From a virus: a DNA stretch of 46,607 bases. How positions within the stretch are numbered: position 1 is the stretch's first letter; each line of letters opens with the position of its first letter. Under the pieces are notes generated by a model. That model did no database searches. It saw only the letters and a program-made list of their open reading frames with translations, and was not told the origin of the DNA. Made by a program: the position numbers and the translations under genes. Positions 2-31,400 of this stretch are shown piece after piece. The stretch covers positions 1 through 46,607 of IMG/VR virus record IMGVR_UViG_3300008448_008798, one strand, 5' to 3'.

Positions 2-196
2 AACTTGATTGAAACATCTCCTAACGGTTATGTATGGAATGTTAATCCTGTAGCTGTAGATTATTTTAAAGCTCCTGAGCAAAACAAAAGGTTCCGTCAT
101 AATGTAAACAAAGTGTTCTTAAGAAGAAATGTTTCTGGTGACACAAAGATTAACTTCAAGACTATAAATACAAAACTTCAAAATTCTAGCAGATAA
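2..196 (+). CDS. C-terminal end of an unidentified plus-strand protein (partial)
   Basis: An open frame enters from the left edge and ends with TAA at 194-196. A TTG at 5-7 could be read as a start, but the frame stays open to the edge and the gene most likely begins upstream, so I treat this as a C-terminal fragment of about 64 residues. The fragment is basic and hydrophilic, with aromatic residues near its start, and shows no motif I recognise. The stop overlaps the ATG of the next gene by one base (TAATG), so the two are probably translationally coupled in the virion-protein operon. No function is proposed. Confidence 0.6.
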   Translation, partial: NLIETSPNGYVWNVNPVAVDYFKAPEQNKRFRHNVNKVFLRRNVSGDTKINFKTINTKLQNSSR

Positions 197-3100
197 TGAA
201 AAAATGGTTAGATAGATATGACAAAGGCGGACCTACTGGTAAAAAACTATCTCAAGCAGAAATAGCAAACATTAGAAATTTTGTTGCAAATAATGCAGAT
301 GTAAATGATATTAATGATCCTAGATATTATATGGGTAGACCACCTGTAAATAAATCTTATAATGTAACCAATAGATTAAGTGCAAGTAACCTTCCAAGAT
401 ATGTAGATCCTAATGTTAAAAATGATCCATCACTTAAATGGGTTAATGCAGCTGCTATGTTAGGTCCTATAGGAGTTTTTGCTGCTCCTCAAATTGCTGG
501 GGCAGCTAGTGTTATTTCTCCATATTTAACAGCTCCAGCAGTTGTTGCAGGAACTGAATTAGCAGGTGTTACACCAGCTAGTATTGCAGCAGCATATTTT
601 GCACATGAAGGTTATAAGAAATTACCACAAACTCAAGCTTCTGTAGTTAATGCATATAGAAACCCTACAACAAGAAATATAATAAGTGCTACAAATGATG
701 TTGGTTGGAATACAATGGATTTTTTAGGTCTTGGAGAAGCATCAAAACTAGTAGGTGAAATAGCAAATCCTATTTCTAAATTACCAGAATATTATAATAA
801 ACTAAAACCTGTTAATTCAATAAACTTTTCTGATTATTTAACTCCAAAAGAAGCAGCTGTTGCAAGAGCACGGAGAATGCTAGCTCAAGAATCTAAATGG
901 AAAGTAAATAATCCTGAAAATCTAAAAGATAAATTTGAAAATATTAGTAATAATTTTGATGAAGTTTATTCATATGAAGTAAATAAAAATCCAAGTGCTC
1001 TTGGCACAAATAGTGATAAAGCATATGTTTTTAAAGATAATGGTTTATCTAGTGCAAATCAAGCAAGAATTGCAGCACATGAAACCGGACATTTTTATAG
1101 AAATATGCCTGATGAAGCTAATGAATGGAATTCTTTTTTTGACTTTTCAAAACTTAAAAGTTCAACAAGAAAATATTTAGAAGGAAAAAGTTCAGCAGCT
1201 GAGCCTATTAATACTGAATCAAAAGCTGAAGGAGTAATTAAATTAGAAAAAGGTGTTCCACATGGAGATGAAATAAGAGAAAGAGCAGCACAATTAAAAG
1301 ATTATATAGCTAAAAAAAACGGTATACCTTTAGATGAAGATTTTGTAGTTACAGAAAAAGATTTAGATGATGCTATTAAAAATTATGTAAAAGATACAAA
1401 TTTAGATAATACAATGAGTGAAATGCTTAGCTCTTTAATAGATAAAAAAGGATTTTTAAATGCAATGAATAAAAGACCTCTTGCTATAATCCCAGCAGCC
1501 ATAAGTGGAAAAGCAATTTATGATAGTTATGCAGAAGGTGGTGAAAGTATGAATCCAGGTTGGTTAGATAGATATGCAAAAGGAGGACCTGCAAATAATT
1601 TTACTATGCAGTCTGCACAACAATATATTCCTAGAGTACAGCTGGATAATTTAAGAATACCTGTACAACAAGAACCATTAAGTTTTATGCAGCAATGGCT
1701 TAATTCACCTATGCATGAGCAAATGCTTTTAAATAGTCTTACAAAAGATGGATTTTATAATAATCCTGATAGGGTTACAAAAAATCTTACAAATATGAGA
1801 AAAAAAGGACTTGGAAAAGCTTTTGTTAAATATTATAATGAAAGACCTGATGGAGTAGGTATAACTACTGGAGGTGATGCAAATAGTAATACACATGAAA
1901 TACGTATTTTTAATAATAATCCAGATATAGTTAAAGGTATAATAACACATGAAAAATCTCATATATCTGATCTTGGTGGAAGATTAATGCCGTTTAGTGA
2001 TGTAGAACTTATAAAAAAATATGTTCCTACTATATATGAAACTCCATATTTTAAAAAATATAATCCTAATAATCTTGAAACAATTGAAAATGTGGCTGAT
2101 TGGGTAAATTACATTAATAAACCAACAGAAACTAGAGCAAGATTAAATGATTTAAGAGAAAGAGCATTTAATAAAAAAGTATATAATCCCCTTAATGAAA
2201 AAATAACACCAGCTCAATATAATAAATTATTAAAATTAGAAAGTACTGATAATACAGGTTTTGGCCCTCTTATCCAATTAAAAAGTGTTTATTCAGATGA
2301 TGAAATAATGAATATGTTAAATACTATTTCAAAAAATGAAAATAGTGATATTACATCTGATAATATGTATACTGCAAAAAATGGTGGTGAAAATATTAAT
2401 GTAGGCTGGTTAGATAAATATGCAGATGGTGGACAAAAAGATAATAAATTATCTGCTGAAGAAATAAAAAATATTAGTGCTTATACGGATTTTTTAAATG
2501 GAGATTCACCTTTTTTAAATAGATTACGTGCTGATAATACATCTAGTTATATTCCTGCTAATAATAATCCTATAAACATAGTTAATACACCGGGGGCTTT
2601 ATTAAATAGAAAAGGTGATCAAAATGTTTTTAATAGAGGTGCTTCATTTTTAGAATTTCAAAATAGAATGAATGAAGCTAAACCTGTATCATTAAACCCT
2701 AGAGTTAGTAAACAAAATGATATTATAAGAAGTCTTCCAACTAATGGTAAAAATTATGCTATTGTTGATAAAAAAGCAGATAGTATATTTTATTTTACTC
2801 CTCAAGGTAAAAATATAACTGGTGAACCTGTAATCACAGGAGCAAGTAGAAATGATATAGATAAAGGATTATCTATGGCTGAATGGATGAAACAAACAGG
2901 AGATCAAGATCATGAACATTATTTTGAATATTTAAAACAAAATAGTTTACAAACAACACCATCTGGTATATTTCATTTAAACAGTTTACGTACTGATGTT
3001 GCTCAAGATCCAAATAGAGCATGGAGATTTATTAATAGTGCATTTAGACCGGATAGAGCAAGAACAGTTTATGAAAATAGGATTAAAGATTACGGACCTA

Positions 3101-5268
3101 GACAATTAATGTACACTTTTTCAGATGAAAATAATAAACCATCAAGTAAAGCAATACATGGAACTGCCCGTCAACAAAGATTAGATGCTTTTAATAATCC
3201 AAATTCAGATAGAGCATTAAGTAATGGGTGTATAAATGTAAATGGTAAATCAATATGTTTTAATGCTTTAACACCAGGAAGTAATTTATATGTACTACCA
3301 GAAAAAAGTGATGATTACTTATATCCTCAAAAGAAAATGGATGTTAATAAGTTTAATCCTTTAAATGAATATTATGAAAATGGTGGAGATACAACAGACT
3401 ATAATTTTCCAGCATGGCAATTAGCAGATCCTATAAGAGCATCATATCATGTAGTTAATCCTAAAAGGTTTCATGGTCCTGATACATATAAGTATCCTAA
3501 TCATATGACATTTAGTAATGAGTCTATGTATTCTACACCAGAACATATGGGTGGTACATGGACAGAATTAAAAAATGGTAAATGGCAGTTTGAACCATCT
3601 CAATGGAATATTCAAAATGCTGGAGGAAAAGAAAACTTTTTAAATTTGTGGAAACAAACAGAAGGTAAACAAGGTAATAAAGTAAAATTTGATTATGGTG
3701 GATCTTTTGGTAGTGCATTTGCAGAAGCTAGAAAAGACTTAGGTGCCGGTAAAATATTTACTTGGAATGGTAAACAATATACTACAAACTATGCTGAAGA
3801 AACTAACACTGTAGATAATTCTGCATCTGTAAGAAGATATACTGCTCCTATAAGAAAACAGGAACTTGTTGATAATAATGCTGATATGGCAGCCATTGCT
3901 GAACAGAGAATGCAATATTATAATCAGCAAAGAAAAGCTGTTCCTCCAATACCTTATCCAGTTCCTGTTAAAGCTAATAACATTCCTGCTAATAAGTCTA
4001 TTGTAAATAATCCATTTTTAAATTTAGCAGCTCCTGCTCAACCGCAACCTTTTGCTAATTTAACACCATCATATAGTAATCTTACACAGTTTGCTTATAA
4101 TCCACAAGATAATAAAAACATTCCTGTTAAAGAACAAAATAAAAGAGTTATACCTAGTAATGAAAAAAATGTTAAATTGGATTTTTCTAATATGACATTG
4201 TCTCCAGCTGGCTTTATACCAGAAAATCCTCCAGTAAAAGGTGGATCACAATTTCCATTAGAAATGTATATAAATGGTATTAAAAGAAAAATTAATAAGC
4301 TTTTTGGAGATGATGAATCATCAGCAAGTAAATTAGATTTAACAAAAGTTAAAGCAAATGTTCCTAGTAAAAATATAGGTTATAAAAAAGTTATAACTCC
4401 AGCTGAATTTGAAAACACATATGCAACACCAACAATAACTGGAGATACATTATGGGATGATAAAAATAAAGGTGTATATCATATGCCAATGGTTGTAGAT
4501 TTAAATCAACAATCATTTGGTTATAGAAATAGAGGTGATGTAAGTGATGTTGAAAGTCCAGGTTATTTGTTTGGTGCTGTAGATGATCCAAACAATCTTA
4601 GAAAGTTTATTAATGCAAAAACTACAAAATTAAATCCTGACCAGTTTTATTCTGGTGTAGATCCTAATACTAAAAAAGTTAGAATACAAAAAGGAAAATG
4701 GTTTCAAGGTAAAAATATAGATGTATTACCACATCAAGGTTTTGAAAATGTAGTTAGTTTAGCTAAAGATAAACAAAATAAATTTGTATTACAAGATGCT
4801 TCTGGTGCAGCAAGAAATTATTGGACCCCTCAATATTTACGTTCAGATAACACTATAAGTGGAGGACCTGGTTTATTAATACATAAAAACCAAAAAGATA
4901 AAGGTTATTATGGTAGTATAACAGGAGGTAATGTAATACTTACAACACCTGATTTTAAACATCAGATATATGTATCAGGTAGTGTAAATGATATTAACAA
5001 TGCTATTGAACAATTTAAAAAAGATACAGGTAGCAAAACAATAAATGCTGTCACTGTAGATAACGGTTCATATGCTAGAAATTATTTAAAAGCAAATAAT
5101 AAAATGTCATCTGTAGATTGGCAAAGTTTAGATAATAGAAATGAAGCCGGTGGATTAGGTTATTATATGTTACCTGGTAAAAAAGATGGAGGTCAAATAC
5201 ATAACTGGAGAGAGGTAGAAGTTCCTCATAAAAAGAATCAATTATCTGGCTGGTTAGATAAGCTTTAA
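196..5268 (+). CDS. Giant multidomain virion protein with peptidase-like and L,D-transpeptidase-like domains (1690 aa)
   Basis: This looks like a string of separate domains, each introduced by a short W-L-D-(R/K)-Y-x-x-G-G tag (W4, W456, W738; a last copy ends the protein at W1686). Unit 1 has a long hydrophobic Ala/Gly/Pro/Val-rich stretch (about 86-135) that could insert in membranes, then an HExxH motif (H295-E296...H299). Unit 2 has a second HExxH (H585...H589). Unit 3 resembles L,D-transpeptidases (YkuD type), with H988 and S1009-N-G-C1012; the usual Arg two residues after the Cys is Asn1014. A later segment near 1180-1200 has an AF-x-x-AR...F-x-WNGK-x-Y motif that I associate with other phage proteins. 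The C-terminal domain (about 1395-1680) is unknown. A role in the virion or in ejection, acting on the cell wall or on proteins, is inferred from domains and neighbours. Start ATG overlaps the upstream stop. Confidence 0.75.
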   Translation: MKKWLDRYDKGGPTGKKLSQAEIANIRNFVANNADVNDINDPRYYMGRPPVNKSYNVTNRLSASNLPRYVDPNVKNDPSLKWVNAAAMLGPIGVFAAPQIAGAASVISPYLTAPAVVAGTELAGVTPASIAAAYFAHEGYKKLPQTQASVVNAYRNPTTRNIISATNDVGWNTMDFLGLGEASKLVGEIANPISKLPEYYNKLKPVNSINFSDYLTPKEAAVARARRMLAQESKWKVNNPENLKDKFENISNNFDEVYSYEVNKNPSALGTNSDKAYVFKDNGLSSANQARIAAHETGHFYRNMPDEANEWNSFFDFSKLKSSTRKYLEGKSSAAEPINTESKAEGVIKLEKGVPHGDEIRERAAQLKDYIAKKNGIPLDEDFVVTEKDLDDAIKNYVKDTNLDNTMSEMLSSLIDKKGFLNAMNKRPLAIIPAAISGKAIYDSYAEGGESMNPGWLDRYAKGGPANNFTMQSAQQYIPRVQLDNLRIPVQQEPLSFMQQWLNSPMHEQMLLNSLTKDGFYNNPDRVTKNLTNMRKKGLGKAFVKYYNERPDGVGITTGGDANSNTHEIRIFNNNPDIVKGIITHEKSHISDLGGRLMPFSDVELIKKYVPTIYETPYFKKYNPNNLETIENVADWVNYINKPTETRARLNDLRERAFNKKVYNPLNEKITPAQYNKLLKLESTDNTGFGPLIQLKSVYSDDEIMNMLNTISKNENSDITSDNMYTAKNGGENINVGWLDKYADGGQKDNKLSAEEIKNISAYTDFLNGDSPFLNRLRADNTSSYIPANNNPINIVNTPGALLNRKGDQNVFNRGASFLEFQNRMNEAKPVSLNPRVSKQNDIIRSLPTNGKNYAIVDKKADSIFYFTPQGKNITGEPVITGASRNDIDKGLSMAEWMKQTGDQDHEHYFEYLKQNSLQTTPSGIFHLNSLRTDVAQDPNRAWRFINSAFRPDRARTVYENRIKDYGPRQLMYTFSDENNKPSSKAIHGTARQQRLDAFNNPNSDRALSNGCINVNGKSICFNALTPGSNLYVLPEKSDDYLYPQKKMDVNKFNPLNEYYENGGDTTDYNFPAWQLADPIRASYHVVNPKRFHGPDTYKYPNHMTFSNESMYSTPEHMGGTWTELKNGKWQFEPSQWNIQNAGGKENFLNLWKQTEGKQGNKVKFDYGGSFGSAFAEARKDLGAGKIFTWNGKQYTTNYAEETNTVDNSASVRRYTAPIRKQELVDNNADMAAIAEQRMQYYNQQRKAVPPIPYPVPVKANNIPANKSIVNNPFLNLAAPAQPQPFANLTPSYSNLTQFAYNPQDNKNIPVKEQNKRVIPSNEKNVKLDFSNMTLSPAGFIPENPPVKGGSQFPLEMYINGIKRKINKLFGDDESSASKLDLTKVKANVPSKNIGYKKVITPAEFENTYATPTITGDTLWDDKNKGVYHMPMVVDLNQQSFGYRNRGDVSDVESPGYLFGAVDDPNNLRKFINAKTTKLNPDQFYSGVDPNTKKVRIQKGKWFQGKNIDVLPHQGFENVVSLAKDKQNKFVLQDASGAARNYWTPQYLRSDNTISGGPGLLIHKNQKDKGYYGSITGGNVILTTPDFKHQIYVSGSVNDINNAIEQFKKDTGSKTINAVTVDNGSYARNYLKANNKMSSVDWQSLDNRNEAGGLGYYMLPGKKDGGQIHNWREVEVPHKKNQLSGWLDKL
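205..5265 (+). repeat. Four dispersed copies of a WLD(R/K)Y-GG tag-coding repeat
   Basis: Inside the 1690-aa gene the stretch coding W-L-D-(R/K)-Y-x-x-G-G occurs at about 205-231, 1561-1587 and 2407-2433. A truncated copy (W-L-D-K-L then stop) is at 5251-5268. The first two share the 14-base core gttagatagatatg exactly. Each of the first three stands just before a new domain, so the repeat marks domain borders rather than forming a tandem array. Confidence 0.75.
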
Positions 5269-5320: not shown

Positions 5321-8300
5321 ATGAATAAGCAACAAATTTTAAACATTACAGGTTTAACTGAGAAGGAATTCTACAGTAGATATCCTGATCAAGAATCATT
5401 CTGTAATGACTATCCTGAAGCATGTGCACAACTTGCACAGGCTGCTGAAGGTATAGAAGTAACAGGTTCTTTAACTTCTCCTGAAGAAATACAAAAGCTT
5501 GGTAAAGCTTATGGTTTTAGAACAGATAGTAATAAGAACTTTCAGCAAGATATGTATAATTATGTTGCTAAAAACAAACCTGAGTTATTTAAAGAATCTA
5601 TTAGTAAGTTTGGGCCGGCTAATGCTGGCTTAACCAATTATGGATCTGTTCAAGGCTACAGACCAGATGCATATATTGGACCACGTGTTGCTGATATGAT
5701 GGGAAGATTAGGAACTCCTCAAGCTCCTAGACAACCTCAAGCTCCTAAGTATGTTGAGTATAGTAATGCTAATGTACGTCAACAGTATGATTTTAATAGA
5801 GGTATGCAACAAAAATATGTAGGATCTAATGTTGCACCTACACCTATTCCTTCTCAGCCTGCTATGCCTGCTACATTTCCTGGTCAACAACCTGTAGGAG
5901 GATATGCTCAAAGAACTGCTCAACAACCTAGTCAACAATATCCAGCACAACCTTTTACTAAAAATCCTGCTGGTGGTTGGAACATAGGTCCTGCTCAAGC
6001 TCCTAGTCAGCCAGCAATGCCTGCAAGACAACAAGCTCCAGCACAGGCTGGTCAACCTCAAATGTCTCATATTGGACCTTGGCATACTAATCCTCAAGGA
6101 GAGTATACAAGATATTACACCAACACTCAAGGAGATATGAATCCTGGTGTAACTCCTGGAGCTGCACTTGGACAACAAGCTTATGGTGGTATTATGGCTA
6201 AAGGTGGAGAACATGGTGGTTTAGATAGATGGTTTGCTGAAAAATGGGTTGATGTAAAAACAGGTAAAGAGTGTGGTAGACAAGAAGGTGAAAAACGTAG
6301 AGGTTATCCTGCATGTAGACCTTCTGTAAGAGTGAATGAAGATACACCTAAAACAAGTGGTGAGCTTTCTTCTGCAGAACGTGAGAAGTTTAAAAGATCT
6401 AAAACATCTAGCAAACGTATTGGTTATCAACACAGTAGAAAAGAAGAAGGTGGTCTTGTAGAAGACTTTAATGATTATTCATATATACCAGAAAATCAAA
6501 TGATAATGGCAAGTGGTGGAAATGTACCTACAAATCCATCATTATGGAGCAGAGCTAAAGCTGCAGCTAAAGCAAAATATGATGTTTATCCTTCAGCATA
6601 TGCAAATGGATTTGCTGCAAAATGGTATAAACAAAAAGGTGGTAGTTGGAGAAAAGCAGAATATGGTATGGAAATACCTATGATGGAAGAAGGCGGTAAA
6701 CCTGAATGGCTTATAGAAGCTCAACTTAAAGCTCAAGGATATTCAGGAAATGCTTTAGAACAAAAATTAGCTACAATGGCAAATGGTGGTGAACCTAATG
6801 GCGGTATGGCTTTAGGACAAATGGCAGCTGTTGTTGATAAGATGAGCAAACTACGTAAGTTTGTTTCTCCTGATCAAAACTTAGATCCATGGATTGCGTC
6901 TAAACTTGCTGTTATGGACCATTCTGCAGATGCTATTAGTGATTATATGATGTATAATCCTGAAGCACAAGGTGAAGGTATGGAAGATATGATGGCATAT
7001 GGTGGTGTGTTTGCTGAAGGTGGTGAACAAGATGAAACACAACAAAGTATTATGGCTGCCTTAAAACAAGGTATGAAGCCACAAGAAATATTAAAAAAGC
7101 TTGTTGCTATGGGTTTAACTAAAGAACAAGCTGTTGCATATATTAAATCTGCTGTAGCACATCCTGGATCTCAATATGATAACACTTATGTAAATGAGTC
7201 ATCTTATAATCAAATGAGTAATGGTGGGGAACCACAAAATGCTGGTTTTCAAGCACTTCCAGATTATGTTCAAGAAAAGATAATGGATAATATGGCAGAG
7301 GGTGGTGAGCTTGATATGTATGGTGGAGGCGGATATGTTGTGAAAAGAAGCAGTGCTAGAAAAGGTAAAACACATGTTGTTATAGGACCAGATGGTACTA
7401 AGAAATATTTTGGTGATTCTAACTTAGGACAACACCCTAAAGATCCTGAACGTAAAGCAGCATTCTATGCTAGACATAAAACTAATTTAAAGAATAATCC
7501 ATACTTCAGAGCATATGCTAGAGCAACATGGGAAGAAGGTGGTGAGATAGAAGATCAAGGTGGTGGTATGTTTGCATACGGAGGTATTCATTTAGACCCT
7601 GCTAAAAAAGGTACATTCAAAGCACAAGCAACAAGAATGGGTATGAGTGTTCAACAAGCAGCATCTCATATTCTTGCTAATAAAGAAGACTATTCACCTG
7701 CTATGGTAAAGAAAGCAAATTTTGCTAAAAACTTTGCTAAAGAAGAAGGTGGTCAAATAGATCAATATAAAAATGGTGGTTATATAGGAATGGATGGTAA
7801 ATTCCATATGGCTAAAGGTTCTGGCACATTCTCTGGTAATGCATACTATGCAAATGGTGGAGAAGAAGATCCAAACTTAACAGCTCCTTATGATGGTAGC
7901 AATCCTAATGCTCCATTGCCTCCGTTTGACCCTAGTGCTTATCAAGCAATGCAATTACCTACAGGATATGTAGGATATAGTAAAAAAGATCCTGCCACTG
8001 GTCAATTTGTTCCTATTGATAATGTAAGAAAAGATGATTTATGGAAACATTTATCAGGTAGTCAAAAATGGAATACTGGTCAAACAGCTACACAAAAAGT
8101 AGGTAGAGCTATAGGTGATGTAGGTAGTGCTGTGAATTATGGTATAGCTGCAGCTGGTGCATACTCTAATTATTTACAAAATAATGAGAGACAGAATGAA
8201 TATAATAAGTACATGGAAAACATGGGCACAACTGCTTCATTATATAATCCTAGTGCTGTTGGAACAAGTAGAGGTGATTATTCTGTAACTGGTAGTTCTT

Positions 8301-9082
8301 ATGGTCAATTAAGACCTAATCAAATGGGTAACTTCTCATGGAAAGGTACAACTTCAGGTAAACAATATGGTGCATATGGTGGACAAACAATGTACACTAT
8401 TGGTGGTGGTGTATTTGATGCATTACTTACAGATACAGATGCTTCATCTCCAGTGGTTTATAATCCTTTAGCAAGTATGCCTTCATTCCGTCAACCTAAT
8501 GCTGTAGATAACACCTATGTTAATAAACCTGCATATGTTGGTAAACCTAAAAATAATGATGGAGCAGTAAATATAACTTCAGGTACTGATATTGCAACAA
8601 AATTAAATAACCCTACAAATATGATTTATCATTCATGGATGTCTAAGTTGGGGGCACAACCTTCAAGTATTAAACAACAAGATGGTGATGGTGTTTTTGC
8701 ATATTTTCCTGATATTGATACAGCTCTTAAAGCTTATGAAACTCAATTATTTGGAGAAGTGGATGGTGTATTTGATAGTAGATATTATAAACCAAATACC
8801 ACTATTGATAAAGCATTAAGAACATGGAGTGGTAATGGATATGGTGGAAACATATATCCTGAAATTGCAAACAAAACACTTGCTCAAGTAACACCTGCTG
8901 AAAGAAGAGAATTAGCAAAAAGACAAATTAAAAGTGAGTCTGGTGCTATGTATTCTAAACTAAAAAGTAAAGGATATTTTGAAATGGGTGGTAGCTATCA
9001 AGAAGGTGGTATTGTAGAAATGTCTGATACAGAGATAAAACAATTCCTTGCAAATGGTGGACAATTAGAATTTTTAGATTAA
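5321..9082 (+). CDS. Modular Gly-Gly-rich virion protein with lysozyme-like C-terminal domain (1253 aa)
   Basis: The N-terminal 120 residues are a compact unknown domain, followed by a Pro/Gln-rich linker (about 128-285). From about 286 to 849 short basic modules are separated by Gly-Gly motifs such as AKGG, EEGG, ANGG and AEGG. Modules include one with C-G-R...YPACRPS (about 309-374), one with YPSAYAN...WYKxKGGxW (407-444), a module with FGDSNLGQHPKDP and FYARHK (about 672-740), and one with KKGTFKAQA...FAKNFAK (760-810). I remember similar short modules from other phage and giant-virus proteins (one as DUF5872), which needs a domain search. The region about 1085-1214 has N-N-P-x-N-M, F-A-Y-F, L-K-A-Y and L-R-T-W-S-G-N-G, resembling P5-like phage muramidases. 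The likely role is a packaged or ejected protein that binds nucleic acid and cuts peptidoglycan; this is inference. Confidence 0.7.
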   Translation: MNKQQILNITGLTEKEFYSRYPDQESFCNDYPEACAQLAQAAEGIEVTGSLTSPEEIQKLGKAYGFRTDSNKNFQQDMYNYVAKNKPELFKESISKFGPANAGLTNYGSVQGYRPDAYIGPRVADMMGRLGTPQAPRQPQAPKYVEYSNANVRQQYDFNRGMQQKYVGSNVAPTPIPSQPAMPATFPGQQPVGGYAQRTAQQPSQQYPAQPFTKNPAGGWNIGPAQAPSQPAMPARQQAPAQAGQPQMSHIGPWHTNPQGEYTRYYTNTQGDMNPGVTPGAALGQQAYGGIMAKGGEHGGLDRWFAEKWVDVKTGKECGRQEGEKRRGYPACRPSVRVNEDTPKTSGELSSAEREKFKRSKTSSKRIGYQHSRKEEGGLVEDFNDYSYIPENQMIMASGGNVPTNPSLWSRAKAAAKAKYDVYPSAYANGFAAKWYKQKGGSWRKAEYGMEIPMMEEGGKPEWLIEAQLKAQGYSGNALEQKLATMANGGEPNGGMALGQMAAVVDKMSKLRKFVSPDQNLDPWIASKLAVMDHSADAISDYMMYNPEAQGEGMEDMMAYGGVFAEGGEQDETQQSIMAALKQGMKPQEILKKLVAMGLTKEQAVAYIKSAVAHPGSQYDNTYVNESSYNQMSNGGEPQNAGFQALPDYVQEKIMDNMAEGGELDMYGGGGYVVKRSSARKGKTHVVIGPDGTKKYFGDSNLGQHPKDPERKAAFYARHKTNLKNNPYFRAYARATWEEGGEIEDQGGGMFAYGGIHLDPAKKGTFKAQATRMGMSVQQAASHILANKEDYSPAMVKKANFAKNFAKEEGGQIDQYKNGGYIGMDGKFHMAKGSGTFSGNAYYANGGEEDPNLTAPYDGSNPNAPLPPFDPSAYQAMQLPTGYVGYSKKDPATGQFVPIDNVRKDDLWKHLSGSQKWNTGQTATQKVGRAIGDVGSAVNYGIAAAGAYSNYLQNNERQNEYNKYMENMGTTASLYNPSAVGTSRGDYSVTGSSYGQLRPNQMGNFSWKGTTSGKQYGAYGGQTMYTIGGGVFDALLTDTDASSPVVYNPLASMPSFRQPNAVDNTYVNKPAYVGKPKNNDGAVNITSGTDIATKLNNPTNMIYHSWMSKLGAQPSSIKQQDGDGVFAYFPDIDTALKAYETQLFGEVDGVFDSRYYKPNTTIDKALRTWSGNGYGGNIYPEIANKTLAQVTPAERRELAKRQIKSESGAMYSKLKSKGYFEMGGSYQEGGIVEMSDTEIKQFLANGGQLEFLD
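6178..7865 (+). repeat. Array of Gly-Gly motif-separated modules
   Basis: Coding repeats of the type (A/E/N)-(E/N/K/Y)-G-G recur at irregular spacing, for example near 6181, 6447, 6516, 6694, 6786, 6997, 7020, 7223, 7300, 7537, 7749 and 7856. Codons are mostly ggtggt or ggtgga. They fall between recognisable small modules rather than inside them. The same style of motif appears in the 1690-aa and 621-aa neighbours. Confidence 0.65.
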
Positions 9083-14185: not shown

Positions 14186-17100
14186 ATGGCTGATAACAAT
14201 ATAACTGTACCTGGAGTTTTTGATAAAATACTTGACACTGGTGCTAATGTACCTGATTTGTCTACTGGCATACAAGGAGTTCCTGACTACCAATATTTTG
14301 GTTCAGATTCTTTAAATCTTAGAATGCCTTCTTTTGGTAATTCTATGCCTGCCATATCTAATAACAATCCAGTTGCAGATGGTATTAAAAATATGTTTGC
14401 TCAACAACCAAGTTTTAATACTTTAGGTCAATCTACTGAGTTCAATCCTGAACAAGTTAATATAAATAGATATAAAGCTTCTCCTGACTTTTTTAAGTTA
14501 GGTGTTAGTTTAACTGATAATAATGAAGAAATTTATGGTCAAAACCAATCTTGGAGTGAGGTTTTAGGTAATGGTATTACCGGAATGAGAAACCTTGCTT
14601 ACAATGGTTTTGTGGATAATGTAAGAGGTTGGGGACGTTTAACCGATGCATTAATATCATGGGATTGGAGCAAACTGCATGGTGATGCTGCATCTATGAT
14701 GGAATTGGATAATAACATGAAAAAAATCATGAATGACAATCCAATTTATGCTACAGAAAAAGGAACAGAAACATTTTGGAATAGAGAAACATTTGGTAAT
14801 TTTTTACAACAATCGGGTTTTACTGTTGGAGCTCTTGCTGAAATAGTTGCTGAACAAGCAATTACAAAAGCTATTGAAGGTGGTTTAGCAATGAGTGGTA
14901 TTGGAGCAGGTGCTGCAGCTACTATAGAAGCTGCTGAAGATATTAGTACTACAGCTAAAGTTGGTAGACTTGCAAGTTTTTTCAGTAAATCAAAAGAGTT
15001 TTTTGATGCTGCTAAAAACTTTAAAGCATTAAAAGCAGCAGGTGATATATGGAAAAGTGAGTCTGCAGTTAAAGCAATCATGAGTGGTGTTGGTGATGTA
15101 AGCATGCAAATTGCTAAACGTTTACCAGTTGTAGACTTAGGATTAGAAATGTACAGAGCTGGTAAGGCTGGAGGCACTGCAATGGAATTAACCAAGATTG
15201 GTGTTGGTGGAGTAAAAAGATTATTAAGTGAATCAAACTTTGCATTCACTGAAGCAAGAATGGAAGCTGCCGGAACTTACACTGATTTAGTAAATCAAAT
15301 GAATGCTGACTACTATAATAGAAATGGTCAGTATGCACAAGGATCTGATTTAGAAGCTATTAATCAAAAAGCTATGAAAGCTGCTGATGGTAACTTCAAC
15401 TTTAATAGTGCTATATTATTTACTTCTAACCGTATAATGTTTAACAACCTTTTCAAAGGAAGTAAAGCAACATCTAAAATGCTTAGTGCATTTGGTGAAC
15501 AATTAGAAGATGGTAGCATTAAAGTACTTGGTAAAATAAACGGCCGTACAACTGCACAATTATATAAAAGTGCAATAAAAGATTTTGGTCAAATATCAGC
15601 TGACTTTGGTAGAACAAAAGCATTAACTGTTGCCGGTAAAAGCATCATGGCTAGTGCATTAAACTTTGAAGTTATAGAAGGTATTCAAGAGTTATTACAA
15701 GAAGGTTCAAATGAATACTTTAAGGATTACTACATGGATGCTTATAAAGCAACCTACAATCCATTAATCCAACCTGATAGTGAAAAGAGTTTAGATGAGG
15801 CAATAGAGTCTCAAAAAAGTATGCAAGGGTTGAAAACTTTTGCATCTGGTGCTTTAACTGGTATGTTAATACATGGTCCTACCGTATTGGTAACCAAGTC
15901 TTTAGAAAAAGCTTCAGATAAAATCACTACATATAGTGATACTAAAAATCTCACTCCTGAAAAGAAAGCTGAGTATTTAAAAAATAAAGCTGAGAGAGAA
16001 TCTGCAGGAGAAGAGTTTAGAAATAACTTTAATGCCATAGCAAAAGATCCTAGTAAGTTCTTTGGTGAGCATGTTAGAAATTACAATGTTCAAAAAGAAG
16101 GTGCTGCAGCATTATCATTAGCAGCTAAGCTTGGAGATAAATTTGCATATGAAAATGTCCGTACAGACATGATGCATAACATATTAATTCAAGCTGTAGC
16201 AAACAACACTCATGAAGCTTTAGTTGATACAATGAGATCTTATGGTCAGAATATGACTAAAGAAGAATTTGAACAAGCATTTGTTGGTATGGATTATACA
16301 GCAGCTAACAAGAAAACTGCTGAAGATTATGTAGGTAGAGTTGCTGATTCTATTGAATCTTATGTAAATACAAGAGGAAAATTAGTTGCTAAGTATGGTC
16401 ATATAGCAAATCCAAATAAGTATAAGTTTGGATCAAAAGAATGGCTTGATGAAAGTATTAAGTTTAAAACATTAAACAACTACATTGACATCTTAGCAGG
16501 TAATGAATTTAAAGCTGCTGATGCATTAAACCGTAATATTGCTTTATTCCAAAAAGCTGCAGCTAACAAAAACTTAGGTTCATCTTTAGCAGCTGCTTTC
16601 CAAATCTTAGGATCTGAAAGAAACATGCAACAAGAAATGGCTGTTCTTAAAGCTGAGTTAGCTAACAAGAAAAGTCAACTTGATGCAGCTACTAATGCAG
16701 ATGATAAAGCATCTATCCAAAAAGAGATGGATCTTAAACAAGAACAACTTGATGCATTAAACAGTTGGAATGCTAATAAAGAAAATGTTACAGATGGTAA
16801 CAAACAAGAAACTTTTGAGGCTTTCAAAAAGTATGTTGAAATAAAAAATAGAGAAGCAGGTAAAGATCAGACTATTAATATACAAGATATTGAAGATCAT
16901 TACCTTGACTTTGTAGATTATATTAAACTTAATGCAAAAGCTCAAGAACACACTGATGCTTTAAACTTCTTAAGTAACCCTGAAAACTTTAAAAATATTC
17001 ATGACCGTTTACAAAATGGTGCTAAAGATGCATACTTTGAATTATTAAAAGATGCTGGTTATGAGTATGTTAAAAAGAATAGTGTAGATAAAAACAAGCA

Positions 17101-20100
17101 CTTTATCATACAAGCTCATGGTTATTATGCCGTATATTCTCCAGAAGGAAAATTAGTTGGTATATCTGATAATCAAGAAGATGCAAATAAAATAAAGAAT
17201 GATAGAGATGCAGCATTAGCTGAAAATCCAGATCTTAATAAAAATACTGTTGATATAACTTACACTACTGCTAGTGGTGAAACCAAAACATACCAAGTAA
17301 ATGAAGGTGATGTTTATGTAGGTAATTTATATAAATCTACAAAATACTCTGGTGTTAAACCTGTCACTTTATTTAATAATGACAGAGTTAAGATTGTTAG
17401 TATATCTGATGATGGTAAATCTGTAACTATCAAAGTTAACCAAGAAGAACCTAAAGTTATAGATGCTAATGAGTTAGCTCAAATAATGTTTGAAAACAAA
17501 TGGAGAAAGTATGAAACATTAAATTCTGATCAAAAGTTATATTTAATATTAAGAAATTCTAAAATAGAATACCGTGTTATTAAAAGAGATGCAAAAGGTA
17601 AACTTGTTAAGAATAAAAATGGTAAGTATGAAACTATTGAAGTGACTGGTAGAGTTACTTTAGATAAGAAAACCAAACAAAACTTAATGTTTACATATAT
17701 TGATCCAGCAAGTGGTAAAATAATAGATGTAGATTATAAACAAAAGCATGTAATTGAAACAACAGAACTTAAAGCTATTCTTAAAGATGAAGAAGAAATT
17801 TTAAAAGAACAGGAGAAAAAAATAGCTGAGAAGTTTACAAAACAACAACAGTATTTATCTAATCTTATATCTCAAGTTGAAGCTGAGCTTAATACTATGC
17901 AAGCTCAAAGAGATAATAATGAAAAAGAATTTGAGGCTTTACAACAAGAACTTGAAGATTTAAATAATAAAGTGGCTGAGGCTGCTGCATATATACAAGC
18001 TAATCCATATGTAAGAGGTAGAAAATCTAATGCTTACAAACAAATGGAAGAGCTTGTTGCTACACTTCCTGCTACTATTGAACAAAAAGAGAAGCAGTTA
18101 GAAATGTTAGCAAAAGAAAAAGAAAATCTTTCTAACATATTAGAAGCTTTAAATCAAGCAAGTGAAACTTATTATAGTGGTTTAATTGAATTAGAAGAAA
18201 CAGAAACACCGTTTTTAGCGGATGAAACTGGAACTCTTTATGGTAATGAGCAAGAACAGCTTGATAATGTTGAGCAAACAAGAATAACTACAAGATTTAC
18301 AGCTGACCAGTTAACTAAAATGATTGGTGATACAGAGGCTGAGATTGATGCTATAGATGAAAGAGTTAAATACTTAACTTCTCATATAGATAATATAAAG
18401 TCTTTATTAAAAACTGTATTAAGCTATAAAGATGTAGTAGATGCATTAATGGATATTACTGACCGTGACATGTTACGTAATCAGTTAAAATTAATGGAAA
18501 GTCAATCTTCTGATGATCCTGCTAAAATGCAGCTTATTAAAGCTATCCGTACAGGATTGGCTAAAGGTGAAAAAGGTATTGAAGCACAATATCTTTTAGA
18601 GTTAATGAACCGTTATAAAGAGTTTAATAATGAGTTTGAAAATTTGATTAAAGAAAGAGATGTGTTAGCTCCTAAGTTATTCAGACTTAAACAATCATTA
18701 GAACAACAAAATGCTGCTGACTCATTAAAAGAAAGAATAGACTTCTTAAAGTTTATTCAAGAAGGTTTAATGAATGAATATAAAAGAGGTAAAACAACTG
18801 TTCAACCTACAACAAGTTCAAGTGATGCTGAGCATAATCTATTAACAAATCCATCAGATCAAGAAATTAGTAATGAAGATGGTGTGTTTGACTATGATGT
18901 TAAAAAGCCTTTATTAGCTGTTAATAGTTTATATGTAACTACCGGTAAGCACTTTGTTGATGATGCTGATACTCAAGTTAATGAGGAAAGTGGTAATGCA
19001 AGATTCTTTAAGTTTTCTCAATCAGTAGACTTAGCTAATTCCAATTATTTCTTTTTACCAATAACTGTAGCTAATGATACTTACGGAATAACAAGATCTG
19101 ATTTATATGCAGATGATATTAAACTTGTTGCTGTTAAATTACAAGACGGTGTATATAAGTTTGTAGATGAAAATGGTGAAGTATTAGAAAACCCTACAAA
19201 AGATAACATGATCTATACTTCTATGAGAGGTAATGATAAAATGTTAGGATCAGATGTAGCAGCCGCAGTTGACTATGTAAAAAGTACATTTACCACAAAA
19301 GGATTTACAGATGCTGAAATAGCTCAAGAAATAGCTAAGTATAAAGCATTTAGAGAAGCAATCAAAACTGCTCCTGCAGATAGCCCTATGTACTTACCTA
19401 TTAAAGGTAAAACTAAAGGTATAGCTGTTATTCTTCCTAAAGATGCTGCAACTGGTCTACCTCAAGAATTATCTTTAGAAGGTAGATTAATTCAACCTGG
19501 CACTACGGATTTCATGAATATGAAACACCCTGATGGTCAAAGTATAAGAATATTTATATCTACTGCAAAAAGTGTTAAAATAGGTGTTAAACCTGGCCGT
19601 TTAGTAATGATGAAAGCAGACGGTACTGTATTTAGAGTGTTTAACCGTCAAGCTACTGAAGCTGAAAAAGATAACTTTATTGAGCTTTTAAAAATGCTTA
19701 CAGGTTTATATGGCCGTAAAGCTGATAGTTTATCACGTCAAGAAAAACAAAATTTAAATGACATATTAAGTTATTTAACTGGCTTTACACATTGGACAAC
19801 TACGGATAGTGAAAGTAAAAGTGCTAATAGATTTTATATTAGTTCTCAAGATGGTATGCTATATAAAGGAAATAAAGGTATTCCATTTACTGTAGCAAGT
19901 ATAGAAGAAAATAAAGCTGATTTAGTCAGTGGTTTATATCATCAAGTTAATAATAAGTTGTTACTAAGTGATAAACAATTTGTTCAACCTATTGTAAAAA
20001 ATGGTAAACTTTCTGTAGAAGAATATAAAAACTACAGTGAATATGTATTAAGTGATAAAAATGCTAATGGTAATGACCGTCAGTTAGGCCCTGCTGTAGT

Positions 20101-23100
20101 GTACACTAATATACCTGTATACACTGCTGATACAACTACTCCACAGTTAAAAAGTGTAAACTTGTTGTATGATAATCCTAATGAGCCGGTTCTTCCTAAA
20201 AATATACAAGTTGTTCAAACTCAAGCTGGAACACCAGCATTAACTGTTTCTAATACAGGTTTTGTAGATACAAGTTCAACACCAATACCTTCTACTCCTA
20301 GTGCTGGTAATAAATGGGTGATATCTGCAACTCCGGCTCCTGTTAATCCAGAAGCTAATACAAACAACTCTCAGATTCAAAACCCTAATCAGACTGTTGC
20401 TCAACAAAATCCTGTGCAACAAAGTACTGTTAACAAATGGGCTATTTTAGCAAATCCTCCAGCTTCAGCAAATACACAAGCTACTGTAGATACTACTCCT
20501 GCTCCAGCGGCACCAGTTAATCCAGTAACCGTAGATCCGGTTGCTACTGTAACTCCTGCAGTTGCGGATATATTAGGAATGACACCTTCACAAAAAGCAA
20601 TGTTATTAACAAGCATGGATCAAAATACTACTTTTGATATTAATGATGTTGATGATATAAATGCTACTGGAGATATTTACTATAGACTACATATTCAAGG
20701 TCAAGTAATTAGAACTGAAGAATTTAGTGCATTGAAAGAATGGTTTAATAAAAACCTTCCTAACATACCTGTTAATAAAGTAGCAGAACTTATAGATGGT
20801 AAAGCTTGGGGTGCATTTAAAAATGGTGCAGTTTATATATATGAGAATGCTGAAGAAGGAACTGGATTCCATGAAGCATTTGAAGCAGTTTGGAATGCAT
20901 ACTTATTACCTAGTGAACAACAAGATTTAGCTAAAGCTTTCCAAAGTAGACAAGGTGAATTTACTAATCCTTTCACTAATGAAACTAAAGCATATGCTAA
21001 TGCATCTATGTATGATGTAAGAGAAATGCTAGCTGAAGAGTTCCGTAGCTACATGTTGAATGAGAAAACTGCAGCACCTAAAGAAAGTGCTATTGTTAAA
21101 TTCTTTAAAGATTTATGGAACTTTATTAAGTCTTTAGTAGGTATGTCTAAAGAAGAAAAACAAACTTCTGAAGATTTAATCAATAAGTTATTTACTAAGA
21201 TTAATGAGGGTAAATTTGCAAATGCTGTTCAAGTAAGAAACTCTAGTGAGATGGGTACTTACTATAGACAAGTTATCCCAGAAACAACACAAGAGTTTAC
21301 AAGTTTAGTTACAGAAGGTTTAACTGCATTCTTTTTCCAAAACTTGTTTGCTAATAATAAAAATATAGATTCTTTAGTAGATAAGAATGCTAACACAAAT
21401 GAGCTTTTGAAAAAGATCTTTATGTTAAGCATGCGTAATTTACATAATAACCTTATGGGTAAAAACTCTATATTCTATAAAGAATATGTATTACCTGAGC
21501 AAAACAAAATTGGTAGAGAGTTTACACATGAAGAAATAGCTAGTTTATTTGAATTTTACTTTACTCCACAAAATAGATTTGCTAGCATGTATTCTAGCAT
21601 TTTCTTAAATCCAGCAGCTGTTTTTTATAACCTTAAACAATCTCTTTCTAAATTTGGTATAGAGTTTAAAGAAAAAATATCTGATGAGGAAGAAGCACTT
21701 GTAGAGGATAAAGAAAATATCTTAACAGATAGACTTGGTATTAAGGACAGCATGACAATTGATCCTAAAAAACTTTCTAGTGTTTCATTTAGAATGTTGA
21801 TAGGTTCATTAACAAATGATGAGTATAATGCTAAAATAACAGCTGAAAACCCAAATCCTATAATCAGTAAGAATAATACAATAGGTGTTCCACAACTAGT
21901 TAATTATGAAGCAACTATGAATATGTTGTTAAATGAATTAAATAGCACTGTGTCTAGATATAAGGATGGTGAGTTTGTAGATGCTCTATCTTTAATGATA
22001 GAAAAACTTGATAATAAATACTACAATAAAACTACTGGCCGTTATAAAGATAATTATGTTTGGATTGAAAGACTTAAGAAAAGATTAAAAGCAGGTAAGT
22101 ATGGTGAAAATATAGAATTGAGTAATGATGATATCCGTTCTATGATTGCTTTTGAAAAAAGTTTATCAAACAAGCAAAACATTCCTTTAAAAACCATTAT
22201 AGATAAAGATGGTGTAATATATGATACCAATCCTATTCAAACAGGTAATGGTAAAAGAGTTCTTGAAGTATGGGAAAATAATGTTATTAAAGATATCCAA
22301 CCATTAACAACTAAAGGTAAAAATAACTTATTAGGTATTGATGATAAAGGTATGGTTGTTATAGATAAAAATAGCTACCAATATGTAGGAAACCCTAATG
22401 ATAAAACTCAAGCATTTATATTAACTTCTAACCCTAGTTTTGAACAAAAACTTAATATTTTAGAATTATTAGGTATTAAGTTTACAGCTCCAGCTGCAGA
22501 ACTTAGACCATATGCAAATGTAATTAATGATAGCTATATTGCTATTATGGAACAATTACAAAGCATTGCTAATCCTATAGTTTCTTTAGATCAAGTATTT
22601 AAAACAGACAGAGTTTCTTCTAGAATTAACAAATTAGTTGAAATTGAAGCAGCTTATACATCTGAAGATAATGTATTAATGCACACTAATGCAAAAGGAG
22701 AATCACAATATTCTATTACATCTCCTTCAGCAATAACTTATGTATTATCATCATTAAACTCTGCAGCAAATCTTAATGACTTTATTAAATCAAATCCTCA
22801 ATTTGGTAGAGTGAATACTGATGGTACAGTGGAATTATTCCCTTATCAAGCAGGATCAGAGATATTAAAACTTGGTGGATTAGTATTTGATGCTAAAGGA
22901 AACAAAAGAAGTAATATTCAGTATCACTTGATATCTGGTATGGCACATGCTGAAAGTGACGGTAAAAATACAGATGTATTAGAATACCCTGATAGAGTTT
23001 CTCAAGAAATACATTATTTACTTAAGAACATTCATTATACAGTTATTAATTCAGATAAGTCTAATGAATTTGGTCTTGGTTATGATAAAGCATTTATAAA

Positions 23101-26100
23101 TTCAAGAATGGTTTCAACATTAATGGATGAAACTACTAATGTTGCTAATGAAGCTTTATTAAATATCTACCGTAACTATTTATTAGATGAGGTAAATGCT
23201 GCTATCCGTGAAAAAGAATTACCTAGCAATATTAATTATTACTCTAAAGATGTTGTAAAACTTGGTCATTTTAATGAAATATTAGGTGAGAAGTTGATGC
23301 AACAGTTTACTACTAAAGTTCTTGATAGTAAAGCTAAAAAGAAAATGACTGCTGATGCTTTTGTTAATCAAGCTGAAGTTGACATTGCTATAACTAAATA
23401 CTTAAAAGGTTTAACTAAAGAAACATTAGAAGGTTTAATTGATTTAGATATTCTAGAAAGAGTTCAAGTTGGTGTTGCAGATAATGGTAAACCTACATAC
23501 CAGTACACTACTAATTCTATTTCACATGAGTTATTAAATAAAGTTTTAGGAATTACTGATGTTGAAAAAATGGATGAGTATGATGCTGAAATAATTGCAG
23601 CATATTTAGCAATAAACAAACAAATAGGTGTTGTTGAACAACATAAAATGTTCTATGGTCATCCTGCTTTATATAAAGACTTAGCAAAACGTGCTAATGG
23701 TGTAAACTCTACTAAAGATGCAATTGTGGATAACCCAACTGTGATCAAGTGGATGGATGAAAGAATGAAACGTTTTGATGGTAAAGTTAGAAGTAAAGAT
23801 GATATTCAAACTTTTAATAATGTATCATTCAAAGATGTAACAGCTGTAGCAAAAATGTACAAAGACATTGCTGAAGGTATGTATGCATCATTAAAAAATG
23901 ATCTATCTAAAGAAGAGGCTGAAAAGAATATTGGAGTTAAATTTGATAGTAAAGGTAAATTCAAAAACTTTATCTTAGATGGTAAGAAATTTACTGGTCA
24001 AATTAAAGCATATGTAGAATTAAATGAAGCGGATGGTCAAGGATGGATTATGCCAGACATGTTCCGTGATATGATGTTCTTAAGTAGTAAATTCAGTAAA
24101 CAACAAGAAAGACAATGGGCTTATGAAATGGCTTATGAGGTTGTTGCTAGAAATAACAAATCTAAAAAAGATGTAGGTTATAGAAAAGCTACTGAAGAAG
24201 AGTTAAGCAGATCTAAAGAAATACTTAAACAGGGTAATCCTGGAGTTATATTACAGGTGTTAAAACCTCAATACTTTGGATATGCTGCTAACAATAGCAT
24301 GATGCAAACTGTATTCTTAAAACACTCGGTTCAACCTAAGTTTTTCCGTCATGTAGAAGGAACTCAGTTTGAAAAAATGTACTTAACTGCACAGAAAAAT
24401 CAAATAGATATTATTGGTTTTGAATCTGGTGAAAAAGTGGGTGCAATGATTAACTCTAAAGGTGAGTTTACATCATTCTATAATGATGAAGGTAAAATCA
24501 ATTTACAGGATGATTTATCATTAACTGAAGGAATGTCTATGCAGACTCTTTATACCAGATATTATGGTATTCAAACAGAGCAGTCTTCATTGGCTAAAGA
24601 TAAAGTGGTAAGAGGTACTCAGGTTACAAAACTTATTATGTCTAATTTCAGAGATGAGAATGGATATACAAGTAAGAAAGCTGAAAGTCTAATTAAGAAT
24701 TATAATTCTACTTTAGAAGAAATGATTGCTTTAGGTAAAGAAGAGTTATTAGATGAACTTGGAATTACTAAAATGGCTGACGGTAGTTACCTTACTACAG
24801 ACATTGAAAAAATGATTAAGCTTTTAAGAGCTGAGATGGATAAGAGAGACCTACCTGATAACTTAATTGATTCTATCAATATTAATCAAAACAGAAACGG
24901 TTTACTATATAAATTTGATACTTCTGCTAATAGAGATAAGATTGATAATATATTAAGTTCTATTGTAGACAGCCGTGTTATATCTGATAAAATGCACGGT
25001 AAAGCAACCGTTCAAGTTGCTAATACAGGATATGAGTTTGCTGGCCGTGAAATGATGTACTTAAATGAGAATGGTGTATATGAATCAGCTACTGATAAAG
25101 AGTTAACAGAAGATCAAGAAAAGTCTTTAGTTGCTGCTTCATCAGATCTTAAATTCTATACAGCTGAGAATGGTGGTATATCTAAAATGGAAGTTTACTT
25201 ACCTTGGTATTTTAATGGTATTACTCCAGAGGAATTAGGATTAAAATTACAGAATGGTGTTTACTTAGTAGGGGATAAGATCAATAAGTCTTTATTAGAA
25301 GCTGTTGGTTTCCGTATTCCTACACAAGGTATGAACTCTATTGAGAACATGGTTATAAAAGGTTTCTTACCTACATCAGCTGGTGACATGATTGTTGTAC
25401 CATCTGAGATTGTTGGAAAGTCTGGATCTGACTTTGATATAGATAAATTGCAGACATACCTTCCTAACTATTATATATTAGGAAAAACAATTAATGTTAT
25501 TGATCCTAGTTTATCTACAGAAGAAATAACTAAAATTGCTAAAGCATCATATGCTGAAAGTATTAAGTTAAGTGAGCAAGGTAATGAGTTGATAAACAAC
25601 TTGTTAGCTGATTTGGGAACAGATCCTGAAGAAGAAAAGTATGTTTCTAAGTTTGTTAAAAACTATAAAAAACAAATCTTACAAGATAGATTTAGAACTA
25701 TCATGTCTGATATTATTTCTCTTCCTGAAAACTTCCGTCAACTTATCACTCCTAATGGAGCTGAAACTTTAAAATCATTGGCTAAAGAAGTTAATGAACT
25801 TAAAGGTGTTAAAGATGCTGAGTCTTCAAAAGTAAAATTATCTGAGTTTATACCTATGTCTGAAACCAGAGAAAGATACTTAACTGGTAAAAGAATGGTG
25901 GGTATTGCAGCATTACAAACTACATCCCATACAATGTCTCAAATTGCAGGTATTAAACTTAGTGGTAAGTATGATGCTAAAATGTTATACTACTTGTTTG
26001 AAAATACTAAACAAAGAGAAGTTGTTATTAGACTTGACCATAATGAAACTGATAAAGGTGAGCTTTACTTATATGCTAAAAAAGGTAAAGATGGCCGCTG

Positions 26101-28499: not shown

Positions 28500-31400
28500 A
28501 TGGCAACTTGTCCAAATATAAATTTAGATTCTTGGAAACAATTAGTAACCTCAAAAGGTGAGGATATGGCATATTATTTATGGGATAAATATGAAGGAAA
28601 TGTTCCTGAGTCTGAAAGTAATATTTCTGAATTAAATGCTAAAGTTCAAGCATTTTTAGAAGGTATCGGTGTATCTGTTAACACTGTAAATAATATCACT
28701 GATGCTTTAGGTAATCCTATAAGTGCAATAGCTAAAGCTGACATGATTAACAAAGTTATTGATGTTGTGCAAGGTAAAGCTGATATAACTACTCTTCCTG
28801 AGGAGGCTGCTCACTTCTTTGTAGAAATGCTAGGAGTAGATAGTCCTTTATATAAACAAATGTTAAACTCAATTACAGGGTTTAAGATATATAAAGATAC
28901 TGTTGACTTATATAAGAATGATAAGCTTTATAGGAATGCTAACGGCACAATTAACTTTGATAAGTTAAAGAAAGAGGCTATGGGTAAACTCATAGCTGAG
29001 CATATAATTAAGCAATCTTCAGAAGAAAAACCTGAAAAACTTAATGAGTTGAATAAATGGTGGTCTAAACTTTGGAACTTTATTAAGAATATTTTTGTTA
29101 AAGTTGATGATAATAATCCATTTAGAAAAGCGGCATCACAAATTCTTGCTGGTGAAACTACAGGTTTAGATAGTGCTAATCTAACTACTGAGACTTATTT
29201 ACAAATAGATCCCCGTATAAATAAAATAGAAGAGGATCAGTCTAAACTTGTACTAGATAACAGTATTGATCCTGTTACAAAACAAAAAAGACACATCTAT
29301 AAGTATGATGGTAAACAAGTTAAGGGATCTGTAACTTCTATTAAAGTGGATGCTTATATGAAAAGCATTTTCCCAACAGATAGAAGAGCTGAAAGACAAA
29401 AAGAAATTGACTTGTTAAAAGCAGAATATGGTGATTTAATCCATGAAACTATACAAGATATTATAGATTCTTATGTTGATCCTGCTACACACTTAGTTAG
29501 ACCGGTTCCAGCTGCATCAAAAAGTAAATATGCTAATGAAGCTTTTTATTCTAAACTTGATGCATATGTTCAAGAACTTATTTCTAATTTCCCAGCAGGG
29601 TCTACATTTATGAGAGAAGTTAAGATATATGATCCAGTTCAAGATATGGCTGGTAGTATTGACTTTTTAATTATAGAACCAGATGGAACTGTAAATATCT
29701 ATGACTGGAAAAGCCAGGAAATAGGCCAATACCAAACTGATGTAAAAACTTACAAAGAGAAAGCTTACCGTATACAATTATCTGAGTATAAGAAAATACT
29801 ACAAACTATATATGGCTTTGATAAGTTTGGTAAAATGAGAGCTATTCCTATTAAAACTGTATTTAACTATACAGGTAAAGGTCAAGAGAAAGAACTTAGT
29901 AGCTTAAAAGAAATTGAAATTGGTAGTGTTGATCCAGCATATATTCCTGGAGACAAAAACTACTTACTTCCTATTACATTAAAAGAAGAGGCTGGTGAAG
30001 ATGAACAACTTCAAAAGCTTTTAGTTAAACTTGGTGATGTAATGGAACGTCTTGAAGCTAAAAAGTTTAAAGGTGATGAGAAACTTAAAAGAGAAGAGGA
30101 GCTTAAGAACTATAGAAATGCCATCAGAGACCTACATTTAAGAGGAGATATTAGAACCTTTATAATGTTAGGTACATATGAAGCTGAAAAGTATAGAAGC
30201 TTGATTAATAGTAATACTCTTACTCCTAAAGATGCTCTAGAGTCATTAGCTATTCTTGGTGTGTTTAGTAATACAACATACAACTTTGAAAAGTATATGT
30301 TGGATTTAAAAGCACAAATGAAGAATGCTACAACTGATGCTGAAAAAGCAGCAATTCAAAAAGTTATTGATGATTATAACTCTATGAACTCTAATGTAAA
30401 TAGTATATTAGGTAAGTTAGAAATAGAAGTTAATAACATTGCTAATCAGTTTGCTACTACAGAGGCTGGTATTACTAACATATTAGCAGAAGAAAAAGAA
30501 ATAAAAGGTGCCACTGCATTATTCACTCAACTTAGTGATTTACCTACAAGAGCTGCTCAAGTATTCAGTAGAGTTTTAAGCCGTGCTCAGAATAAAAGAG
30601 ATTACTTATATAAAGAATACCATGAGAATATAGTAAAAATTAAAAAAGACTTAGAAAAATGGGCATCTGGTAAAGGTTTATCTGGTATAGATATGTTTAA
30701 AGGTATACTAAACATAGATGAGAAAGGTAATTGGACTGGTGATTTCTTAAGTAAATATAAAAAAGAGTTTTATTCTTTAAGAGATAAAGCAATCAAAGAA
30801 CATGATCTTAAATGGATTGCTGATAACATGGAGTTTGATGATGCAAAATATGAGGCTGATGCAAAGAAAAGATGGGAATTTTATCAGTCAATTGTATATG
30901 ATGCTGATCCACAAATAAATGCAAACAAACAAGCTCAAGCATTTAATGCATGGGTTGAGAATCATAACATTAATGCTAAGTTAAAAGATGGTGGTATAAA
31001 TACTACAGCCATCTTTAATAAAAACAATCAGTATTTAAAACCTGATGCTAAATGGGAGAGTGATAAATGGAAGGATTTAAATAAAGCAGAGAATGCTCCA
31101 TTGCTAGCTGCTTACAATCAGTTCCAAACTTTGATTAGAGACTCTGAAAAAGCAGGTATTTTAGATGATTATTCACCAAGATTTATTCCTAACATGCATG
31201 CTACTAAGCTTGATCAGTTAGTTTTTGGTGGTGATTTATTTTCTAAAAAAGGTATTCTTGAATCATTAGAAGTTGCTGATGGTAGAAATTATGCTCCTCA
31301 AGTTGACCCATTAACGGGTAAAGTTATGCATAGAATACCTACACATTTTATTAGAGATATAGGTATGGAGAAAGAAGATGGTACGGTTGATTATTCAAAT

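Follow-up and report, generated by a model that had tools for sequence, protein, structure and literature searches.

The question raised by this locus is why one giant viral protein carries the same short peptide tag at its start, at its end and in front of enzyme domains that bear no relation to one another. The window (the whole stretch of DNA that was analysed, 46,607 nucleotides of the IMG/VR record IMGVR_UViG_3300008448_008798) contains the gene of a tagged multi-domain protein of 1690 aa at positions 196–5268; this and all window features located below lie on the plus strand. A previous sequence-only reading had described a WLDRY-xx-GG repeat at the protein start and at residues 456 and 738, and the copies are indeed found at residues 4, 456 and 738; the start that it gave, 205, is the Trp codon of the first tag, whereas the ORF begins with the ATG at 196. 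Tag 1 (MKK-WLDRYDKGG, 205–231) stands at the gene start, tags 2 (GWLDRYAKGG, 1561–1587) and 3 (GWLDKYADGG, 2407–2433) were located by pattern match, and the fourth copy, SG-WLDKL-stop (5251–5265), closes the ORF. In a six-frame scan of the window, WLD[KR]Y-xx-GG was found in three in-frame copies, all in this ORF and none elsewhere, versus no occurrence in 100 dinucleotide shuffles of the window. The terminal WLDKL had been regarded as a cut copy, but it is the ordinary, untruncated C-terminal form of the tag; among 87 C-terminal copies, exactly one residue follows the five-residue tag in 78 and none in 4.

As had been proposed, each tag copy introduces a separate domain. Module 1 consists of a hydrophobic stretch (about residues 83–118, 442–549), similar to stretches that recur about 100–130 aa past a tag in three other loci (L103, L151 and L195), and of an HExxH motif (HETGH, residue 295, 1078–1092). 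Module 2, whose folded core (1654–2325) was delimited by homologues, a sequence profile and a structure model, contains a second HExxH motif (HEKSH, residue 585) and a conserved Glu in the sequence PTETRARLN. It is common to at least eight other tagged proteins; in L163 and L110 it is the first module after a tag at the gene start, and in L116, L022 and L054 the tag ahead of it is internal. Behind tag 3, Pfam recognizes an L,D-transpeptidase (YkuD) domain (residues 853–1016, 2752–3243) with its HGT motif and the catalytic Cys motif SNGC at residue 1009; the match has an E value of 9e-6 with the whole protein and of 1.9e-7 with the module alone, and its score of 32.2 bits compares with a Pfam gathering score of 23.4. 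Several unrelated effector domains, namely two putatively zinc metallopeptidase-like HExxH modules and YkuD, are found in a single polypeptide.

The tagged gene lies between the muzzle gene, gp44 in crAss001, and the virion RNA polymerase genes (gp47). Upstream, the muzzle gene is truncated at the window edge, and its remaining part (2–196), which encodes the C-terminus, is 98% identical to the end of a 1551-aa ORF of the relative L150, which in turn matches crAss001 gp44 (E 9e-8). Downstream are found a gene for a 1253-aa protein with DUF5872 (5321–9082), a virion RNA polymerase ORF of 4770 aa (14186–28498) and, by comparison with crAss001, a gp49-like RNA-polymerase-associated protein containing a PD-(D/E)XK nuclease domain (28500–33095). 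The polymerase ORF matches both gp47 (tblastn, E 6e-9) and gp50 (E 6e-4) of crAss001 and appears to be a fused enzyme, while gp45 gave no tblastn match in the window at 1e-3. In other loci, tblastn with the crAss001 virion proteins places the muzzle upstream and gp45 or gp47 downstream of the tagged genes; most of these loci encode the C-terminal part of the muzzle separately, as a protein of about 288 aa that shares homology with the muzzle C-terminus.

This separate protein allowed a tag-blind test, in which 45 non-redundant loci were fetched by its alignment. The tag was present in the next gene in 39 of the 45 and in the second gene in 3 more, and these stretches contained no other tagged gene. 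The loci left are L292, which is cut, and L293 and L318, whose proteins end in KAIKNL and KALKNI, respectively, both like the following gene; these endings suggest a merged or lost slot. Likewise, in 24 records, mostly of 100–128 kb, the tag pattern was found at one place per genome or was absent, and a reversed-pattern control gave 0. The crAss001 portal protein matches all 20 tagged genomes tested; in most tagged genomes the major capsid protein has diverged too far for this. The gene that follows the tagged one has its own recurrent features: across loci it starts with a conserved module (xILKIAGVKSEKEFYKKYPTEEAFMxxHGK in relatives, MNKQQILNITGLTEKEFYSRYPDQESF in the window) and, in relatives, it has a conserved C-terminal end, RNGSIVKAIKNL before the stop, so that more than one slot seems to be marked at its ends.

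Well over 100 contigs of uncultured crAss-like phages carry the WLDKY-type tag, almost without exception in one gene slot. A first scan of IMG/VR with back-translated WLDKYxxGG retrieved at least 118 stretches, in most of which the tag lies in frame just behind the start Met (M-x-x-WLDKY) or after GG within a long ORF. Genes starting with the tag, which the sequence-only reading had expected in related crAss-like genomes, were found (MANWLDKYEQGG and MKKWLDKYNDGG among others), with M(A/N)(N/K)WLDKY in relatives corresponding to MKKWLDRY in the window. In these loci the letters W, L, D, K and Y occur 157 times in the order WLDKY, about 120 of which were pre-selected by the scan, and never in another order. 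Moreover, about 40 distinct ORFs end in a C-terminal copy (GGWLDKYN-stop, GGWLNKYK-stop), a form that the WLDKYxxGG pattern does not select. A second, independent scan with GGWLNKY gave 110 matches, 80 of them at most 12 residues from the ORF stop, and most such ORFs have a tag near the start that was likewise not selected; these N-terminal tags indicate that an adjacent GG is common and not required. The core of the tag is W-L-(D/N)-(K/N)-Y, or more broadly W-L-(D/N)-(K/N/S)-(Y/F), with W, L and Y nearly fixed.

Tag positions, counted in over 100 non-redundant multi-tag ORFs, follow a regular scheme: tags are found at the gene start or just past a small N-terminal module, between modules, and one residue ahead of the stop. 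GG directly precedes 73 of 87 C-terminal and 97 of 110 internal copies. In the 74 complete ORFs the median length is 583 aa with two tags, 967 with three and 1811 with four, a series with which the window protein (four tags, 1690 aa) is consistent; 48 of the 74 have only two tags, and tags are near both ends in most complete proteins. Thus n modules tend to carry n+1 tags, joined to the modules via Gly-Gly linkers. Several other sequences recur around the tags. An N-terminal module, KAKEILHDKSVHGHPLTDKQRRFFGAIAGGAKP, precedes the tag in L008, L075, L004 and many others and occurs alone, tagless, in L293 and L318, and a zinc-ribbon-like module (CHICGKDNTM) is found ahead of the tag in other proteins. 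Two conserved modules lacking a Pfam match, GRNYSPAWGGQF and PGAVGFTYART...SDTGD..MxPGxxYxFxGxxVTEYP, are shared by L008 and many tagged proteins, and NFTNYN often stands just ahead of the C-terminal tag.

No more than 25 stretches were retrieved with the Arg form of the tag. Many are not in the reading frame or fall within short chance ORFs, and they provide a yardstick for noise; the same scan yielded the close relative L141. Among cellular genomes, GGWLDKYxxGG was confined to three Oscillospiraceae bins, in a single family of hydrophobic, transporter-like proteins. Searches of INPHARED phages with the whole window protein and with its modules gave no match or noise only, and a near-DNA search gave no match. 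A peptide-pattern search of viral contigs with the whole protein also found nothing, because the payloads are not conserved. In the literature, 'WLDKY' appears in no relevant paper.

The payloads are rich in predicted effector domains. The tagged proteins, 113,600 aa in total, contain 50 HExxH motifs, versus 8 in the 331,677 aa encoded by other ORFs at the same loci, an 18-fold enrichment, and the motif is present in 45 of 145 tagged proteins. Pfam domains among these proteins include ADP-ribosyltransferases, ART-PolyVal among them, SLT transglycosylase, LysM, histidine phosphatase and YkuD, and a putative metallopeptidase family is also matched. As far as can be predicted, this mix is that of the polyvalent proteins, large multi-domain polypeptides with zincin-like metallopeptidases, ADP-ribosyltransferases and peptidoglycan-attacking domains that are thought to be packaged and injected (PMC5512222). 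Unlike these, the tagged proteins carry a short motif at each end and at the joints between modules, are found in one slot and are exchanged at the motif; the text of PMC5512222 does not contain 'linker', 'short motif' or crAss.

An AlphaFold model was obtained for positions 1552–2451, that is module 2 with its flanking tags. The pLDDT is about 57–88 in the core and about 31–36 in the tag-bearing ends, and the first tag forms a lone five-residue helix. The tags lie outside the folded domain; the sequence-only reading would have been contradicted by a tag buried in one continuous fold or by homologues lacking it at the gene start, and neither was observed. The low-confidence ends would suit a linear motif that is exposed and presents W, L and Y on a single face. 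Foldseek yielded no PDB match for the model at E ≤ 0.001, and alignment to zincins such as PPEP-1 by VIA-align gave a Z of only about 4, near noise, with a model of middling confidence. A model of a 301-aa tagged protein was set aside for its mean pLDDT of 37.

The link to virions comes from the same module. When the module-2 model is compared with BFVD, the top hit is a structural protein encoded by Cellulophaga phage phi14:2, and phi4:1 and then human-gut crAss-like phages rank next. A module-2 profile, in a search of five proteins, matches phi14:2 gp081 twice (E 5e-19); this protein (L340, 9361–11142) carries two HExxH modules in tandem and has a short match to crAss001 gp45 (E 4e-4), and its gene immediately follows that of the muzzle homologue gp082. 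The GenBank entry of gp081 reads 'annotation based on experimental MS/MS proteomics analysis', and phi4:1 gp041 is likewise annotated from MS/MS; for relatives of gp081 the annotation says no more than tail or structural protein. The crAss001 proteins encoded in the muzzle-adjacent block are virion cargo (PMC10172136), and gp45/gp46 of this phage, as well as phi14:2 gp081, occupy the slot directly after the muzzle gene, as the tagged genes do. Unlike the latter, they have no WLDKY-type motif, which is absent from phi14:2 gp079–gp082 and from crAss001 gp44–gp46. Since gp081 is reported in virions and has no tag, the tag is not a general packaging requirement and is a feature of the uncultured lineages. 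Homology nevertheless supports the identification of the window-type tagged protein as virion cargo, in agreement with the cargo role proposed from the sequence, since the slot holds virion cargo in these cultured relatives.

Comparison with a close relative (L150/L141), in which gene order is the same as in the window, reveals how the payloads differ. The DNA is 96% identical across nt 1–221, into tag 1, and about 94% identical from nt 5186, just ahead of the C-terminal tag, into the next gene; the segment enclosed by the first and last tag regions (222–5185) is replaced by 2.8 kb of different sequence. Short tag-to-tag matches aside, all that aligns over any length between these flanks is a 72-nt island (1519–1590), 92% conserved, which holds tag 2 in the midst of unrelated payload. 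The tagged protein of the relative is 980 aa long and has a different payload with another HExxH, and its tag 2 shares 30 of 31 nt with window tag 1. Payload is exchanged between tags in close relatives. The Met preceding tag 2, read earlier as a former gene start, is an Ile in the closest relative, so it is no conserved start codon. Among related loci, 57 alignment breakpoints fall at -15 to +33 nt of tags, versus 10.2 ± 3.4 for displaced tags, a descriptive comparison, since the loci are kin to one another and the counts are not independent events; a second cluster of breakpoints is found at the end of the conserved module behind the tag. The window also encodes a Sak4-like annealing protein and an exonuclease. 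Within the tags, synonymous codon usage for D, K and Y is close to background, which indicates that selection acts mainly on the peptide; Leu TTA (0.70 vs 0.49) and Asn AAC (0.51 vs 0.27) deviate from it, and an effect on the tags at DNA level is possible.

These data are best accommodated if the tagged ORF encodes a polyvalent, injected virion cargo protein of a crAss-like phage (Crassvirales), produced from a hypervariable muzzle-adjacent slot and built of modules that are bracketed by a docking motif and exchanged there; we consider this reading fairly probable. The tag would probably be an address or coupling of exchangeable injected cargo. It may act as an exposed docking motif, to which a conserved virion or scaffold protein would bind, loading or holding the modules, and its repeats could double as joints where the phage's own Sak4-like annealing protein/exonuclease system can swap them. 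The stronger proposal, that a conserved virion protein reads WLDKY as a transferable coupling motif, so that any module between two copies in the slot would be loaded and delivered, is plausible, and we hold it tentatively, at somewhat below even chances. The fusion of tagged genes suggested by the sequence-only reading fits as one route, but exchange at tags within one slot describes the data better.

The tag had also been suggested to be a processing signal. A phage peptidase, for which the HExxH modules are themselves candidates, would then cut the polyprotein there, before packaging or after ejection. The position of the tags in flexible linkers between folded modules in the structure model and the HExxH enrichment agree with this, and cleavage by their own zincin peptidases has been proposed for polyvalent proteins such as DdrB of phage P1 (PMC5512222); yet a cut one residue before the stop or three residues past the start Met would free only a few residues, a majority of the complete ORFs have just two tags, most tagged proteins lack HExxH, GG is often missing at tags, and the crAss001 virion paper contains neither 'cleav' nor 'proteol' in its text (PMC10172136). 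Processing is thus considered unlikely. If, instead, the tag had no peptide role and were kept only as shared DNA for homology-directed cassette exchange by annealing, the payload swap, the breakpoint enrichment, the near-identical tags of window and relative and the Sak4-like and exonuclease genes would all be explained; the near fixation of W, L and Y while D, K and Y codons vary like background, the retention of terminal copies in single-module proteins and the strict positions relative to start and stop make such a role very improbable. Both of these explanations fit the terminal copies less well. Finally, the tags could bind each other, between subunits or between the two ends, or a gp45-like ejection protein, and so build a periplasmic conduit, with no part in virion loading. 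The slot adjoins gp45/gp46-like ejection genes and tags are near both ends of most complete proteins, but the same data fit docking equally, and self-assembly is regarded as distinctly unlikely.

Short peptides that mark cargo proteins are known from phage T4, where the capsid targeting sequence (CTS) is found at the N-terminus of unrelated internal head proteins and of Alt, including an ADP-ribosyltransferase; this sequence occurs at the N-terminus alone, and the prohead protease cleaves it off. The window protein resembles these proteins in having a short conserved peptide at its N-terminus (MKKWLDRY), and differs from them in that WLDKY tags also occur as internal and C-terminal copies. Polymorphic toxins combine constant parts with variable effector modules that are exchanged by recombination (PMC3482391); the tagged proteins differ in being constant at both ends, in repeating the motif between modules and in belonging to a phage virion slot and not to a secreted toxin.

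The finding bears on the signals that load proteins into crAss-like virions and on what these very abundant phages inject. A five-residue motif at the ends and joints of variable cargo would reveal injected effectors in uncultured genomes by sequence alone, and the tag offers a concrete handle for tests of virion loading. The tagged slot displays modular effector exchange inside one virion gene slot and, if the coupling-motif reading is true, phages would have in it a natural plug-in system for the effectors that they inject.
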